Below are positions 58,578 to 64,000 of a stretch of DNA of 64,000 bases, one piece after another. A program made the translations under genes and the position numbers. Under the pieces are notes generated by a model, which was not told the DNA's origin, did not search any database, and saw only the letters and a program-made list of their open reading frames with translations. This DNA comes from Prosthecobacter vanneervenii (lineage in GTDB: Bacteria; Verrucomicrobiota; Verrucomicrobiia; Verrucomicrobiales; Verrucomicrobiaceae): NCBI RefSeq assembly GCF_014203095.1, contig NZ_JACHIG010000002.1, positions 487,695-551,694 on the forward strand, written 5' to 3'. The first letter of the stretch is position 1. The number at the start of each line of letters is the position of its first letter.

Positions 58578-59363
58578 ATGACATTCCCTCGGTTCTTTTC
58601 CCTGCTCTTTGCGGCTTGGACCGTCACAGCCTCCGCTGCGACGGTTTCCGTGACTGGTTTGGATAATAACGGCGACGTGATCGGGCAGTATGTCATTGGT
58701 GGTCAGACCTATTGGTGGATGTGCATTGAACCGGGACCGCCAGCCATCAGCAATCAGACCATCACCGCCAACAGCCTCTCTTTTACCGATGGCTGGACGG
58801 TGCAAAACACTGAACGCTATGTGAATACGTATGGGGCCGACCCGAGTTTCTACGCCAGCATCGTGCCGAAGCAGATCGCGGTGATGGAGTATGTGCTGGA
58901 TACCTACCTGCCCTGGAACACGCTGGCCGGTGCCTCTGGGCGCTTTTTGGAGCAAAGCGGCGACTTTAACAATTTCACGAACAACGACAGCTTCTACAAC
59001 GCGATGTTTGCGGTGCAGAACTTCCTAGCGCAAACGGAGGGCAAGCCGCCGAAGTCGGACTTTACCGACATGAGCGACTACCTGGACTACTACGCCGGTC
59101 ATGGGAATGCCACGGATGACGCGCGCTCCGCGATCTTCCAGAGCATGCTCAGCGATGTGGCCGCGAAGGACGGTGCGGGCTTTTTCGCCACCTACACTCC
59201 CGTGCACGATTATTCCACGATCAACACCTACGCTCCAGAGGCTGATCCAAGCAACTGGCAGGACGGGCTGGTGATCGGCATGGCAGCGGTGCCAGAACCG
59301 GGCAGCGCCATCCTCGTGGCCAGTGTTGGGCTGGCCTGGATCATCCGCCGTCGGCGTCGGTAA
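58578..59363 (+). CDS. PEP-CTERM sorting protein
   Basis: The 261-residue protein has a signal peptide (MTFPRFFSLLFAAWTVTASA), a body rich in Asn and Tyr, and the C-terminal tag VPEPGSAILVASVGLAWIIRRRRR. This has the PEP motif, a membrane helix and an arginine cluster. PEP-CTERM proteins are sorted by exosortase with exopolysaccharide production. The body matches no family I know. It is divergent from the PPIase operon and ends seven bases before a convergent small gene. Confidence 0.92.
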   Translation: MTFPRFFSLLFAAWTVTASAATVSVTGLDNNGDVIGQYVIGGQTYWWMCIEPGPPAISNQTITANSLSFTDGWTVQNTERYVNTYGADPSFYASIVPKQIAVMEYVLDTYLPWNTLAGASGRFLEQSGDFNNFTNNDSFYNAMFAVQNFLAQTEGKPPKSDFTDMSDYLDYYAGHGNATDDARSAIFQSMLSDVAAKDGAGFFATYTPVHDYSTINTYAPEADPSNWQDGLVIGMAAVPEPGSAILVASVGLAWIIRRRRR

Positions 59364-59682: not shown

Positions 59683-59717
59683 GGCGCATAAACGATAAAA
59701 ACCGTCATTTATGCGCC
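59683..59717 (+). promoter_or_regulatory. Inverted repeat over the start of the diheme fusion gene
   Basis: GGCGCATAAA (59683-59692) is matched by its exact complement TTTATGCGCC (59708-59717), separated by 15 bases. The second arm contains the ATG at 59711. It could be an operator or an mRNA stem that hides the start codon. If the downstream ATG at 59741 is used, it lies in the leader. Confidence 0.55.
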
Positions 59718-61495
59718 TCAATTCCACGAGAAGCTTGCTTATGCAGGCGCTGAAAACACCCCGTTTGCGGGGTCTGGTGGTGGGGATGGTGATGATGGGG
59801 ACGGGGGTGGTGGCGCAGGAGATGAGGCTGGAAATCAATTCGATGGCAGGTGGTAAGGCTTTGAGGATGAATGAGCCAGTCTCGGCTCAACAAAAGGCGA
59901 GGATCACGAGGCTGGACTTTCTGCTCTCGGGGCTGGCGCTGCGGAGGAAGGATGGGACGTGGGTGGAATCGAAGGACTGGTTTGCGTATCTGAGCGCAGG
60001 TGCTGGAAGGATGACGGCGAAGGGATCGGGCATTCCGGCGGGTGAGTACACGGGGATCCGTTTCCAGATTGGGGTGGATGATGCCACCAATCGTGCTGAT
60101 CCGCACCGATATGCCGCAGATCATGCGCTGAACCCACAGGTGAACGGTCTGCACTGGGGATGGATGGGAGGATATATCTTTCTGGCGCTGGAGGGAAGAT
60201 TCCAGAACGAGGGAAAAGAGGACGGGTTCTCCTACCACATCGCGAACATGCCGCAGCTCATGAAGGTGGATCTGCCGGTGGAATTTCGGGGCGGGAGGCC
60301 GCTGACTTTGACGCTGGATTTTGACCTCGAAAAGGTGCTTTCTTGTGTCGGATTCAGCAAAGACGGCACCTCGACCCACTCGCGGGAGGGCGATGAGCTG
60401 GCGATGCGGATCAAGAGCCGGATCGAGCAGTCGTTCCGGGTGCGGGGGCTTAGCTATGATGTGTATCAGACCCCGGCGTATGCCAGCCCCCCTGCCCCGC
60501 TGCCGGCCGGGACGCATGCCTACAAGCCAGCGGTGACGCAGCGCTTTCCGCAGGTGCGGCTGCCGACGGACAATCCGCTTACGGAGGAGGGGGTGGAGCT
60601 GGGGAGGAGGCTGTTTCAGGACAAGCGGCTATCGGTGAACCAGACGCAGGCGTGCGCGTCGTGCCATGATCAGGGGCATGCGTTTGCGGATGTGCGGCGC
60701 TTCAGCCTGGGGGCGGAGCAGCAGGTGGGTAAGAGGAATGCGATGCCGCTTTTCAATCTGGCGTGGCAGCCTGCCTTCTTCTGGGATGGGCGCGCGGCGA
60801 CGCTGAGGGAGCAGGTGCTGATGCCGATCCAGGATGCGCATGAGATGAACGAGACGCTGCCGAAGGTGGTGGCGAAGCTGAGTGCGGATGCGGAATGTGT
60901 GGAGGCGTTTCGCGCGGCGTATGGGGTGAGTGAGATCACGGCGGATGGGATTGCCAAGGCGCTGGAGCAATATCTTCTCACTTTGGTTTCGCAGGAGTCG
61001 CGGTTTGACCGTGCGGCGAGGAAGGTGGCGGAGCTGACGGAAAGTGAGAAGCGGGGGTTGAGGCTGTTTGTGACGGAGTTTGACCCGAAGCGCGGACTGC
61101 GCGGGGCGGACTGCTTTCACTGTCATGGGGGGACGCTGTTTATGAGCCAGGCGTTTGCCAACAACGGGCTGGCGCTGGCGGAGGATGACATCGGACGGAT
61201 GGCGGTGACGAAGGACGAGGCGGACCGGGGCAAGTTTAAAACACCGAGCCTGCGGAACATCGCACGCACCGCGCCATACATGCATGACGGTCGCTTTGCC
61301 ACGCTGGAGGAGGTGGTGGAGCACTACAGCAGCGGCGTGCGCAACAGCCCGACGCTGGACCCGAATCTGGCGAAGCATCCGGCAGGAGGAATCCAACTGA
61401 CGGCGGAGGAGAAGGCAGATCTGGTGGCCTTTCTGAAGACGCTGACGGATGAGAGCTTCACCGGTGGAGAAGAGGCCACCACTGCTGCGCGATGA
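59711..61495 (+). CDS. Fusion of MbnP-like copper-binding domain and MauG/MbnH-type diheme peroxidase
   Basis: The 594-residue protein begins with a signal region (LVVGMVMMGTGVVAQ, residues 22-36). Residues 37-250 match MbnP-like copper proteins: ITRLDFLLSGLAL, GIRFQIGVDDATNRADPH and the signature GLHWGWMGGYIFLALEG (Trp149 and Trp151). Residues 285-580 are a diheme cytochrome c peroxidase/MauG domain with CASCH (315-319), CFHCH (468-472) and APYMHDGRFATLEEVV. In methanotrophs, separate MbnH oxidises a Trp of MbnP to kynurenine, needed for copper binding. Here both are one chain. The start may be ATG 59711 or ATG 59741. The stop overlaps the copper radical oxidase start by four bases, so the two proteins should be made together. 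Confidence 0.9.
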   Translation: MRLNSTRSLLMQALKTPRLRGLVVGMVMMGTGVVAQEMRLEINSMAGGKALRMNEPVSAQQKARITRLDFLLSGLALRRKDGTWVESKDWFAYLSAGAGRMTAKGSGIPAGEYTGIRFQIGVDDATNRADPHRYAADHALNPQVNGLHWGWMGGYIFLALEGRFQNEGKEDGFSYHIANMPQLMKVDLPVEFRGGRPLTLTLDFDLEKVLSCVGFSKDGTSTHSREGDELAMRIKSRIEQSFRVRGLSYDVYQTPAYASPPAPLPAGTHAYKPAVTQRFPQVRLPTDNPLTEEGVELGRRLFQDKRLSVNQTQACASCHDQGHAFADVRRFSLGAEQQVGKRNAMPLFNLAWQPAFFWDGRAATLREQVLMPIQDAHEMNETLPKVVAKLSADAECVEAFRAAYGVSEITADGIAKALEQYLLTLVSQESRFDRAARKVAELTESEKRGLRLFVTEFDPKRGLRGADCFHCHGGTLFMSQAFANNGLALAEDDIGRMAVTKDEADRGKFKTPSLRNIARTAPYMHDGRFATLEEVVEHYSSGVRNSPTLDPNLAKHPAGGIQLTAEEKADLVAFLKTLTDESFTGGEEATTAAR

Positions 61496-64000
61496 AACGT
61501 CTATCGCTGATCCTAGCGCTGATGATGGCTGCGAACTCCGCGAATGCGGACGGGGTGACGCATGAGCAGGATGATGCGCTGGCCGCCGAAGCGGCGCTGC
61601 TGGCACCACCTGCCGAGCTGCCGCAGGTGCAGACGCCCTCCCCCGTGCAGTATGCGACGCTGGGAAAGTGGAGCGCAGTGATCCCGTGGACGCCGCACAT
61701 CCCGGTGACGTGTGCGATGCTGCCGGATGGAAGGCTGCTGACCTTTGCGTCGAGCCAGCCGACCACGTTTCCGATGGGGACTTCCACGTATGCGGCGACG
61801 TGGGACTGCCGCACGGGGGAGTTCAAGGTGGTGAACAACCCCTACCACGACATGTTTTGCGGTGGTGTAGCGATGCTGCCAGACGGACGGCTGCTGGTGA
61901 ACGGGGGCAACAACACGATCCGTGACAGCAGCGTGTTTGACTGGCGCACGAACACCTGGAGCAAGACCGCTGACATGCAGGACCCGCGCTGGTACAACAC
62001 GAGCGTGGCACTTCCGGACGGGAGCGTCTTCACCGCGCTCGGCTCCGGAGGGAGCAGCAGCTCCGAGCGCTGGACGGAGAGCAAGGGCTGGACGCGCTAC
62101 ACGGGGATCGACTGGACGCAGGCCACGAGCGAGAACGACATGGAGTCGATCTGGCACCCCTTTCTGCATGTGGCACCGAACGGGAAGATAGCCCACACCG
62201 GCCCCACCAAGACGATGCACTGGGTGGACCCGAGCGGGAACGGGCAGATCATCAACACGAGCGCGTGCGTGCAGGGCTACTACTACCCGAAGGACGGAGC
62301 GATGGTGATGTTTGCACCGGGGAAGCTGCTGCAAGGAGCGGGGCGCACGGTGGGTGGTGGTGCGACAAACCAAGCGTGGGTGGTGGACATCAACGGGAGC
62401 ACGCCCACGGTGACCCAGACGGGCAGCCTGAAGTATGCGCGCACTTTTGCCAATGGCGTGATCCTGCCGACGGGCGAGGTGATGGCGATCGGGGGGAACA
62501 CATCGCAGATCAAATTCAGTGATCTGGGCAGCGTGATGACGCCGGAAATCTGGAACCCGACGACCGGAACGTGGCGCACGGCAGCGGACATGCAGGTGCC
62601 GAGGAACTACCACTCCGTGGCGATGCTGCTGCCCGATGGGCGTGTGTGGTCCGGAGGTGGCGGACTGAGCGGTGATGCAGCGGACCATCAGGATGCGCAG
62701 GTCTTCACACCGCCGGTGCTTTTCAATCCGGATGGCACGGCGGCGGTGCGGCCGGAGATCACGGAAACGCCGGAAGTGATCGGGCCGGGGCTGGCCTTCA
62801 CGGTGCGCGCCACGGCGGGGATGAAGCGCTTTACGATGATCAAGTCGGCATCGCTGACGCATTCGGTGACGAGCGACCTGCGATTTGTGGAGCTGGTCTT
62901 TAATGAGGTGGCACCGGGCGCGTATGCGCTGCAGGCACCGGCGAATGTGAATGTGCTGACGCCGGGGTACTGGATGCTGTTTGGCATCTCGGCGAGCGGG
63001 CCGTATTCGGAGTCGAAGATGCTGCTTGTAGATGCGACGCTGACGAGTTCGATCAGCCATCCGGACGCTCAGTTTACGACGGTGGGGAAAAGCGTGGTGC
63101 CGGTGACGGTGAGGTCGTATGGGTACAGTGCATCGACGCGAGCCTACAGCGCCGACAATCTGCCGCCGGGCGTGACGCTGGATGCGGTGAGCGGGCTCAT
63201 CTCCGGCACGCCAACGACCACAGGCCGCTGGAATGTGAGCGTGACGGTGAGCGACGGACTGCTGGAGGCAGCGACGGCAAGCTTTTTGTGGACGGTGCAC
63301 TCTGACCTGCAAGTGGAGCCGCTGGCGAACGCGCCGGTGCAGGCGGGTGATGCTTTAAACTTTAACGTGGCCACAAGTGGAAGCAGCGCGCCGGAGTTTC
63401 AGTGGGACTTTGGCGACGGCACCGGGGTGACGGATTTCAGCAGCAGCGCGAGCTTTGCCAAAACCTACGCCAAGCCGGGGCGCTATCTGGTGACGCTGAC
63501 GGTGCGGGATGACACGGGAAGCGTGGTGACGACGAGCTTTCACCAAGCCGTGCACGCGCCGCTGACGGCGAAGAGGCCGAGTGTTTCAAGCAGTCTGGCG
63601 TATCAGGTGCGCAGCGGAGCGAACGCGAGGCTGTGGGTGGTGAACCCGGACCAGGACAGCGTGACGGTCTTTGATGCAGTGACGCGAGCACGCGGCGGAA
63701 TCATCGGCACCGGCAAGGGACCACGCAGTGTGGCGACAGCGCCGGATGGAAGAGCGTGGGTGGTGAACAGCGAGAGCGGAAGCATCAGCGTCATCGGGGC
63801 GAATTTGAGCGTGGTGCAGACGGTGTCGCTGGCTCTGGGATCGCGCCCGTATGCGGTGGTGTTTGATCCTGCGGGGAGTGCTGCGTATGTGTCGCTGCAG
63901 GACAGCGGCGTGGTACTGAAGCTGGATCCAACGAATCCGGCCAAGGTGCTGGGATCGGCCCAGGTGGGAACGAGCGTGAGGCACCTGTCTGTGAGCGCGG
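61492..64000 (+). CDS. Galactose-oxidase-like copper radical oxidase, C-terminus outside window
   Basis: At least 836 residues are present. A signal peptide (MKRLSLILALMMAANSANA) precedes a kelch-type propeller and an early-set domain ending with NVLTPGYWMLFGISASG. All galactose oxidase active-site residues align: Cys123 in HDMFCGG, Tyr168 in DPRWYNTS (the Cys-Tyr crosslink pair), Tyr373 and His374 in RNYHSVAMLLPDG, and His457 in SLTHSVTSD. After about residue 515 come a PIG-type repeat (LPPGVTLDAVSGLISGTPT), a PKD domain (WDFGDGTG) and YVTN-like propeller blades that run off the window. It should oxidise a primary alcohol or aldehyde to aldehyde or acid and make H2O2, outside the cell. It overlaps the MbnP-diheme fusion by ATGA. 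Confidence 0.93.
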   Translation, partial: MKRLSLILALMMAANSANADGVTHEQDDALAAEAALLAPPAELPQVQTPSPVQYATLGKWSAVIPWTPHIPVTCAMLPDGRLLTFASSQPTTFPMGTSTYAATWDCRTGEFKVVNNPYHDMFCGGVAMLPDGRLLVNGGNNTIRDSSVFDWRTNTWSKTADMQDPRWYNTSVALPDGSVFTALGSGGSSSSERWTESKGWTRYTGIDWTQATSENDMESIWHPFLHVAPNGKIAHTGPTKTMHWVDPSGNGQIINTSACVQGYYYPKDGAMVMFAPGKLLQGAGRTVGGGATNQAWVVDINGSTPTVTQTGSLKYARTFANGVILPTGEVMAIGGNTSQIKFSDLGSVMTPEIWNPTTGTWRTAADMQVPRNYHSVAMLLPDGRVWSGGGGLSGDAADHQDAQVFTPPVLFNPDGTAAVRPEITETPEVIGPGLAFTVRATAGMKRFTMIKSASLTHSVTSDLRFVELVFNEVAPGAYALQAPANVNVLTPGYWMLFGISASGPYSESKMLLVDATLTSSISHPDAQFTTVGKSVVPVTVRSYGYSASTRAYSADNLPPGVTLDAVSGLISGTPTTTGRWNVSVTVSDGLLEAATASFLWTVHSDLQVEPLANAPVQAGDALNFNVATSGSSAPEFQWDFGDGTGVTDFSSSASFAKTYAKPGRYLVTLTVRDDTGSVVTTSFHQAVHAPLTAKRPSVSSSLAYQVRSGANARLWVVNPDQDSVTVFDAVTRARGGIIGTGKGPRSVATAPDGRAWVVNSESGSISVIGANLSVVQTVSLALGSRPYAVVFDPAGSAAYVSLQDSGVVLKLDPTNPAKVLGSAQVGTSVRHLSVSA

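Follow-up and report, generated by a model that had tools for sequence, protein, structure and literature searches.

The window, a stretch of 64,000 nucleotides from Prosthecobacter vanneervenii (phylum Verrucomicrobiota; contig NZ_JACHIG010000002.1, positions 487,695 to 551,694), ends in two genes transcribed in the same direction, the first encoding a fusion of an MbnP copper-binding-type domain with an MbnH/MauG-type diheme domain and the second a giant copper radical oxidase (CRO). The two form a conserved, nearly always touching gene pair, and there is about an even chance that the fusion serves as a dedicated, exported partner in maturation of the CRO, with copper loading the likeliest step of its action on the oxidase. 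The original prediction described a two-gene arrangement at 59711-64000 whose members overlap by ATGA; the overlap and the two genes stand, but gene 2 continues beyond the window to a length of 2370 amino acids (aa) and has a diheme region of its own. Coordinates without a prefix are those of the window; the prefixes L and G denote loci and genomes in the comparison.

59711-61495, + strand: gene 1, the MbnP-MbnH fusion, an open reading frame (ORF) of 594 aa identified by family matches and the predicted fold of both halves
61492-61495, + strand: ATGA stop/start overlap, with the gene 1 stop TGA at 61493-61495 and the gene 2 start ATG at 61492-61494
61492-64000, + strand: 5′ part of gene 2, the giant CRO, which runs past the window (complete on the contig, L003:4187-11299)

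Confinement of the pairing to this one genome had been named as one outcome that would speak against the prediction; instead, it recurs at 38 non-redundant loci, Brevifollis gellanilyticus (L111) and Roseibacillus persicicus (L139) being two named strains that have it. A pool of 90 CRO loci was assembled from a scan of named genomes (80 of its 88 matches, biased toward sequences like the query, a bias that underlies the CRO counts), eight loci from a sample of the phylum, and two more. The MbnP and MbnH parts of a partner are both visible at 40 loci and only the MbnH part, at a contig end, at two; 38 loci are unpaired, with no MbnP match at any of them, and 10 are cut. In all 40 the two parts share one ORF, the MbnH part of L092 being split over two frames. 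Removal of four duplicates, whose shared sequence was checked, left the 38 non-redundant paired loci; among L003, L050, L051, L053 and L086-L165, no other pair is 99% identical over 1500 bases. The spacing of the genes is -4 at 25 of the 38 loci and between -4 and +29 at 37, the exception being L141 (+353); because spacing was measured from the in-frame start nearest the gene 1 stop, short gaps are favoured and gaps are, if anything, understated. All 38 paired loci are from Verrucomicrobiota (35 rows of the CRO tree and three fragments outside it), and the unit is retained at about 47-59% protein identity.

In a sample of 387 genomes of the phylum, the MbnP family (PF20243) was found in 22 and CRO profile matches in 19, of which 10 are weak and partial (best E 1e-11) and nine strong. 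The strong matches comprise eight genomes with an intact CRO and G285, a contig-edge fragment with alanine in place of the catalytic cysteine and no MbnP match in its genome. All eight intact-CRO genomes possess MbnP, with the fusion directly upstream of a CRO bearing the propeller-diheme module described below. Co-occurrence of MbnP and CRO by genome exceeds chance (Fisher p 2.4e-10, with the fragment G285 included), and of 197 genera 15 have MbnP, including all five with an intact CRO (p 1.3e-6; five of six with the genus of G285); since the genomes are related, these p values are guides only. Any other neighbour family recurs at no more than four of 36 paired loci, counting up to four ORFs per side with many loci cut, or five of 36 in a laxer recount. 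Chance adjacency is rejected on the co-occurrence statistics together with this low recurrence of other neighbours, and synteny as the sole explanation is rejected on the latter.

Phylogeny places the pairing in a single lineage. The CRO tree has 80 rows (35 paired, 37 unpaired and eight cut, after rows shorter than 300 aa and the four duplicate loci were dropped), and all paired rows lie inside one Verrucomicrobiota group of 56 (35 paired, 18 unpaired, three cut). The unpaired members of this group are L135 and two branches: one of 14 rows, nine of which adjoin a gyrase/topoisomerase A-like gene (eight by sequence cluster plus L166; L103 and L166 checked by Pfam), and one of five rows, four of which adjoin an isocitrate/isopropylmalate dehydrogenase gene (L099 checked by Pfam). 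Pairing looks ancestral in the 56-row group, probably with later losses. The fusion tree, made by a quick method, has 65 rows; rows shorter than 380 aa, L096 and L168-L187 were dropped, and L126 and L096 were left out of one further row set. In it, 36 CRO-linked rows (35 loci, since L101 and L197 share sequence) and nine unlinked rows, selected for the presence of an unlinked CRO in their genomes, form one group of 45 (Shimodaira-Hasegawa-like approximate likelihood ratio test, SH-aLRT, 85). Outside this group fall three other rows and 17 rows linked to genes of the YHYH family (PF14240).

The reading of gene 1 as MbnP joined to a diheme domain is borne out by Pfam matches, two CxxCH motifs and the predicted folds of both halves. 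Conservation is given over 30 paired fusions.

59816-60367, + strand: MbnP copper-binding-type domain, residues 36-219 (Pfam PF20243, 112 bits against a cut-off of 27)
60155-60163, + strand: W149-G-W151, a WxW motif holding the candidate kynurenine tryptophan, aligned with WNW of the solved MbnP 7l6g
60533-61465, + strand: MbnH/MauG-type diheme domain, about residues 275-585 (PF03150; fold match to 6e1c)
60653-60667, + strand: first haem motif CASCH, residues 315-319 (Cys and His kept in 30 of 30)
61112-61126, + strand: second haem motif CFHCH, residues 468-472 (Cys and His kept in 30 of 30)
61325-61327, + strand: Tyr539, aligned with a tyrosine of 6e1c (kept in 30 of 30)

The N-terminus resembles a signal peptide by eye, and the CCP_MauG match (PF03150, residues 293-438) scores 185.7 bits against the Pfam cut-off of 25.6. 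In the MbnP part, Trp149, His148, His176 and His223 are kept in all 30 fusions and W151 in 28; in the diheme part, both haem motifs and Trp358, Gln368, Pro372, Glu378 and Tyr539 are invariant, the latter five being residues that we take to be the pocket and bridging positions of the peroxidase/MauG family. In typical bacterial peroxidases the position of Tyr539 is a methionine.

An AlphaFold model built from a 30-row alignment (predicted local distance difference test, pLDDT, 83.9) superposes residues 34-248 on MbnP 7l6g (Z 17.9, root-mean-square deviation 3.1, 204 residues aligned) and residues 270-587 on 6e1c (Z 30.0, root-mean-square deviation 2.3, 304 aligned). The latter entry, presumably MbnH and titled as a MauG-like protein associated with microbial copper homeostasis, is the top structure for the diheme half in both Foldseek and VIA, with MauG entries at Z about 26. 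By predicted fold, then, the gene 1 product is an MbnP-MbnH fusion. It scores below the cut-offs of NCBIfam TIGR04052 for MbnP (33.1 bits, equivalog cut-off 140) and TIGR04039 for the MbnH family di-heme enzyme (252.5 bits, cut-off 362.85); having missed the former cut-off, the first half is to be regarded as an MbnP-fold domain and not as that equivalog. Assignment of this domain to MopE/CorA found no support, as a sequence search of the PDB with the MbnP profile, up to E 1, matched nothing but 7l6g. In the VIA structure list, too, only 7l6g is strong for the MbnP part, though the list's lack of others is no evidence.

Gene 2 was predicted to encode a copper oxidase with a Cys-Tyr site, and its galactose oxidase matches and five site residues agree.

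61663-63030, + strand: CRO domain, residues 58-513 (PDB galactose oxidases; PF09118, PF07250)
61858-61860, + strand: Cys123, predicted crosslink cysteine (Cys in every paired row covering that column)
61993-61995, + strand: Tyr168, predicted crosslink tyrosine and copper ligand (CRO alignment)
62608-62613, + strand: Tyr373-His374, predicted copper ligands (CRO alignment)
62860-62862, + strand: His457, predicted copper ligand (CRO alignment)
63559-64000, + strand: first part of the YVTN propeller-diheme module, which covers residues 690 to about 1325 (the remainder beyond the window; L003:6257-8161)

The best match to a PDB galactose oxidase (E 1.2e-83) spans residues 58-506, and the E-set domain PF09118 scores 54.3 bits against a cut-off of 25. 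Judged from the aligned residues, the predicted Cys-Tyr/copper site is intact, and the catalytic residues are kept in all paired rows that cover them. Replacement of the crosslink cysteine by alanine was seen only in L132, L138 (both Thiotrichaceae) and L167, and of one site tyrosine by histidine in L165, none of which is paired; the two Thiotrichaceae homologues retain the remaining copper-site residues. Gene 2 is not a GlxA equivalog (NF052501, 148.2 bits, cut-off 800). Residue W208 of the CRO was considered as specific to paired copies and rejected: it is kept in paired and unpaired Verrucomicrobiota CROs and in two of 15 others, so that it tracks phylogeny and is no evidence for a target site.

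Past the CRO domain, gene 2 encodes in order He_PIG and PKD domains, a YVTN-type propeller, a cytochrome region with CxxCH at residues 1094 and 1224, Big_12 and PA14. All 68 full rows, drawn from several phyla and with duplicate loci counted, retain both CxxCH motifs of the propeller-diheme module. In L086, a close homologue, this part gave a predicted model of pLDDT 91.2, the propeller of which best matches an archaeal YVTN protein (Z 37.8), followed by hydrazine synthase beta (Z 37.4), with unrelated propellers at about 31-34. The combination of CRO, YVTN propeller and diheme module occurs not only in Verrucomicrobiota but also in Gammaproteobacteria, Chloroflexi, Acidobacteriota, Myxococcota and others, and no account of a built-in diheme module in the CRO family was found in the literature searched. 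Elsewhere in the window, a gene at 58578-59363 (+ strand) encodes a 261-aa protein with a PEP-CTERM-like tail by eye and no Pfam match.

A counterpart of the pair exists in Gammaproteobacteria, where a CRO of the same architecture adjoins a MauG-type diheme protein with a YtkA-like domain at nine of 20 loci. These 20 consist of seven loci of the CRO scan with room to look and 13 of 14 added ones (L239 was omitted, being cut after the CRO start), and they include L240, L242 and L244, cut near the end, and L247 and L248, with weak CROs. YtkA and MauG parts are fused upstream of the CRO in L148 and downstream on the same strand in L235, L236, L237 and L238; they are separate neighbouring genes in L143 and L241 (upstream, same strand) and L131 (downstream, opposite strand), while in L242 part of a diheme protein is visible at the contig edge. 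The partner coordinates are as follows.

L148:2978-4621, YtkA/MauG partner
L235:14547-16136, YtkA/MauG partner
L236:2219-3889, YtkA/MauG partner
L238:14340-16016, YtkA/MauG partner
L241:10788-14080, YtkA/MauG partner
L131:17445-19542, YtkA/MauG partner

Pfam confirms YtkA and CCP_MauG in L148, L235, L236, L238, L143 and L241; YtkA of L131 is below the Pfam cut-off, and in L237 Pfam supports the diheme part alone, YtkA being found by a custom profile (84 bits). L131, L143 and L148 were used to build the custom profiles and hence are not independent. Scores of the gammaproteobacterial diheme parts with the MbnH profile are low (53-86 bits where shown), indicating another branch of the family. 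At L241:10788-13250 (- strand), an 820-aa protein with two CCP_MauG stretches, a tandem diheme, adjoins the YtkA gene and the CRO. CtaK, a YtkA family protein, has been implicated in CuA assembly in Bacillus (PMC13344008). The YtkA/MauG partner looks convergent with the MbnP-MbnH fusion, and the nine loci, together with the 38 recurring Verrucomicrobiota pairs, give good support to the functional link between fusion and oxidase that the original prediction proposed.

MbnH acts on MbnP to convert a tryptophan to kynurenine. By analogy, the diheme half of the fusion would use H2O2 to form kynurenine oxidatively from W149 or W151 in the MbnP half to which it is joined, creating a tight copper site; the loaded MbnP domain would hand copper to the newly secreted CRO, which, once supplied, would complete its Cys123-Tyr168 crosslink, and H2O2 made by the CRO could keep the fusion active. 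The fusion may also act in trans on CRO paralogues encoded elsewhere. This proposed chemistry of copper loading or activation and use of the CRO's H2O2 is consistent with the conserved sites. It is possible, at somewhat less than even chance, that a copper domain with its own modifying MauG-type enzyme constitutes a self-activating copper-loading module dedicated to CROs, and that this design arose two or more times, built on MbnP in Verrucomicrobiota and on the unrelated YtkA domain in Gammaproteobacteria.

Several known systems resemble parts of this proposal. The MbnP/MbnH pair of Methylosinus and others (TIGR04052/TIGR04039) has the same two folds, the WxW motif and two c-haem motifs, whereas here there is one fused protein that lacks a four-Cys motif, falls short of both NCBIfam cut-offs and has a CRO for a partner. 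The six MbnP matches in 200 Pseudomonadota genomes lie in ORFs of 254-435 aa, which could not accommodate the fusion. In the mtoX - SCO1/senC - mauG operon, as here, a secreted copper oxidase has a copper-chaperone domain and a MauG-type diheme protein encoded next to it, and the genes of copper methanethiol oxidase are reported to sit with SCO1 and MauG genes that are sometimes fused (PMC5739008); the oxidase there is of the SBP56 type and not a CRO, and the chaperone domain is SCO1 and not MbnP. Maturation of the CRO GlxA of Streptomyces, like that proposed here, involves a copper chaperone as well as a haem peroxidase: Sco and DtpA are needed at low copper, and added copper rescues maturation (PMC4736821). 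The GlxA system differs in employing a DyP-type peroxidase and Sco in lieu of a fused MbnP-diheme protein. In methanotrophs, a kynurenine-containing copper protein (CorA, MopE/SACCP) is co-transcribed with a diheme peroxidase-like protein (CorB), which was suggested to convert tryptophan to kynurenine in MopE/CorA; growth continued after one such diheme gene had been knocked out, leaving the enzyme's necessity open there, and the copper protein is a copper-repressed surface protein for which the accessible part of the source mentions no oxidase partner (PMC3912023). Galactose and glyoxal oxidases (AA5) share with gene 2 the propeller, the E-set domain and the Cys/Tyr/Tyr/His/His site, but gene 2 adds a YVTN propeller and a diheme cytochrome module to its CRO. 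A copper-chaperone domain with a MauG-type diheme protein serving a secreted copper oxidase is an already known kind of system; what sets the present pair apart is the MbnP-MbnH fusion with a CRO.

A number of observations weigh against strict dependence of the CRO on the fusion or against the chemistry proposed for it. The four-Cys motif named in the molecule name of 7l6g is absent from all 30 paired fusions, whose MbnP parts have zero to three cysteines. The CRO itself, as read from its domain matches and haem motifs, carries a diheme module, which complicates the proposed chemistry. No YtkA/MauG partner was found at 11 of the 20 gammaproteobacterial loci (L136, L142, L144, L146, L240 and L243-L248, some of them contig-cut), nor at L132, L138, L151 and L161, which are short or cut and were also scanned. 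Of the 42 genomes in which a CRO is unpaired or cut, 23 have MbnP: with the genomes grouped by record title, 17 of 19 from Verrucomicrobiota and just six of 23 from elsewhere, the latter fraction implying that CROs can work without MbnP. Conversely, a strong CRO match is missing from 14 of the 22 genomes of the phylum sample that have MbnP. At L188, L190, L191 and L192, both the fusion and the genes on either side correspond to their counterparts in L086 and L128, and neither a CRO gene nor a remnant of one lies between the matching flanks; these genomes hold other CROs, and the tree suggests that the gene was lost from these loci as opposed to originally absent. The genome of the window has a second CRO without a partner beside it, and an unlinked paralogue of the fusion (G000:C8, L004:8529-10415, - strand); CRO and YHYH genes are both absent from the 19 kb examined at the latter.

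The main rival to maturation is redox activation, in which the diheme half with H2O2 would oxidize the resting Cu(II) form of the CRO by one electron to the tyrosyl-radical form and the MbnP half would serve only for docking or local copper supply. A precedent exists in fungi, where a copper radical alcohol oxidase is activated by a secreted haem peroxidase encoded by an adjacent gene, and electron paramagnetic resonance supports one-electron oxidation; there the peroxidase is of class II, the genes are head-to-head, and the accessible part of the report describes no copper-binding domain (PMC9770985). Invariance of Gln368, Pro372, Glu378, Trp358 and Tyr539 in the diheme half fits this activity as well. 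Nevertheless, redox activation leaves unexplained both the fused copper domain and the use of YtkA, a different copper-assembly domain, in the gammaproteobacterial version; the CRO already has a diheme module of its own; and DtpA raised GlxA activity no more than horseradish peroxidase did, with no strong complex detected (PMC4736821). We regard redox activation as unlikely.

It is rather improbable, too, that the two proteins serve one extracellular task, such as polymer oxidation, copper handling or peroxide consumption, without the fusion acting on the CRO. Such a shared pathway would account for retention of the fusion where the neighbouring CRO is missing and for the added PA14 and PKD domains of the CRO, domain types that are common in polymer-binding proteins. 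It would also suit the MbnP loci of other types: of the 27 MbnP loci in the phylum sample, eight are beside a CRO, 16 have a YHYH gene within about 4 kb instead, and three have neither. YHYH matches occur in 48 of the 387 genomes, one to five in each, a frequency that would place one near a given locus by chance in about 0.5% of cases (a rough figure assuming 2.2 per 5 Mb). However, a close relation is suggested by the contiguity of the two genes and by the CRO-type fusions forming a group apart, and the design of copper domain plus MauG is seen again beside other CROs, there with a copper-assembly domain unrelated to MbnP. Hitchhiking in an operon, that is, adjacency by descent alone with no functional tie, is very improbable: confinement of the paired loci to one phylum indicates that common descent contributes, but the unit persists at the protein identities given above while other neighbours change, and all five intact-CRO genera have MbnP. 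Maturation of the CRO by the fusion accordingly remains the preferred reading.

Most of the MbnP loci near YHYH genes (L031-L055, e.g. L031:1648-4941 and L045:14570-17608) are MbnP-MbnH fusions, and five of eight YHYH proteins scanned also have a sulfatase domain. YHYH proteins are possibly a second client family of MbnP.

The original prediction knew of no earlier description of the arrangement, and none was found in the literature searched, including PMC6405878 and PMC11267884; nor did that literature hold anything linking MbnP with galactose oxidase, or galactose oxidase with cytochrome c peroxidase in Verrucomicrobia. MbnP and MbnH have been termed "mysterious partners" of unclear role (PMC3621798). 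The conserved two-gene unit offers them a specific candidate client, makes directly testable how bacterial radical oxidases outside the cell acquire copper and their Cys-Tyr cofactor, and draws attention to a CRO family that itself has a built-in diheme module in several phyla.

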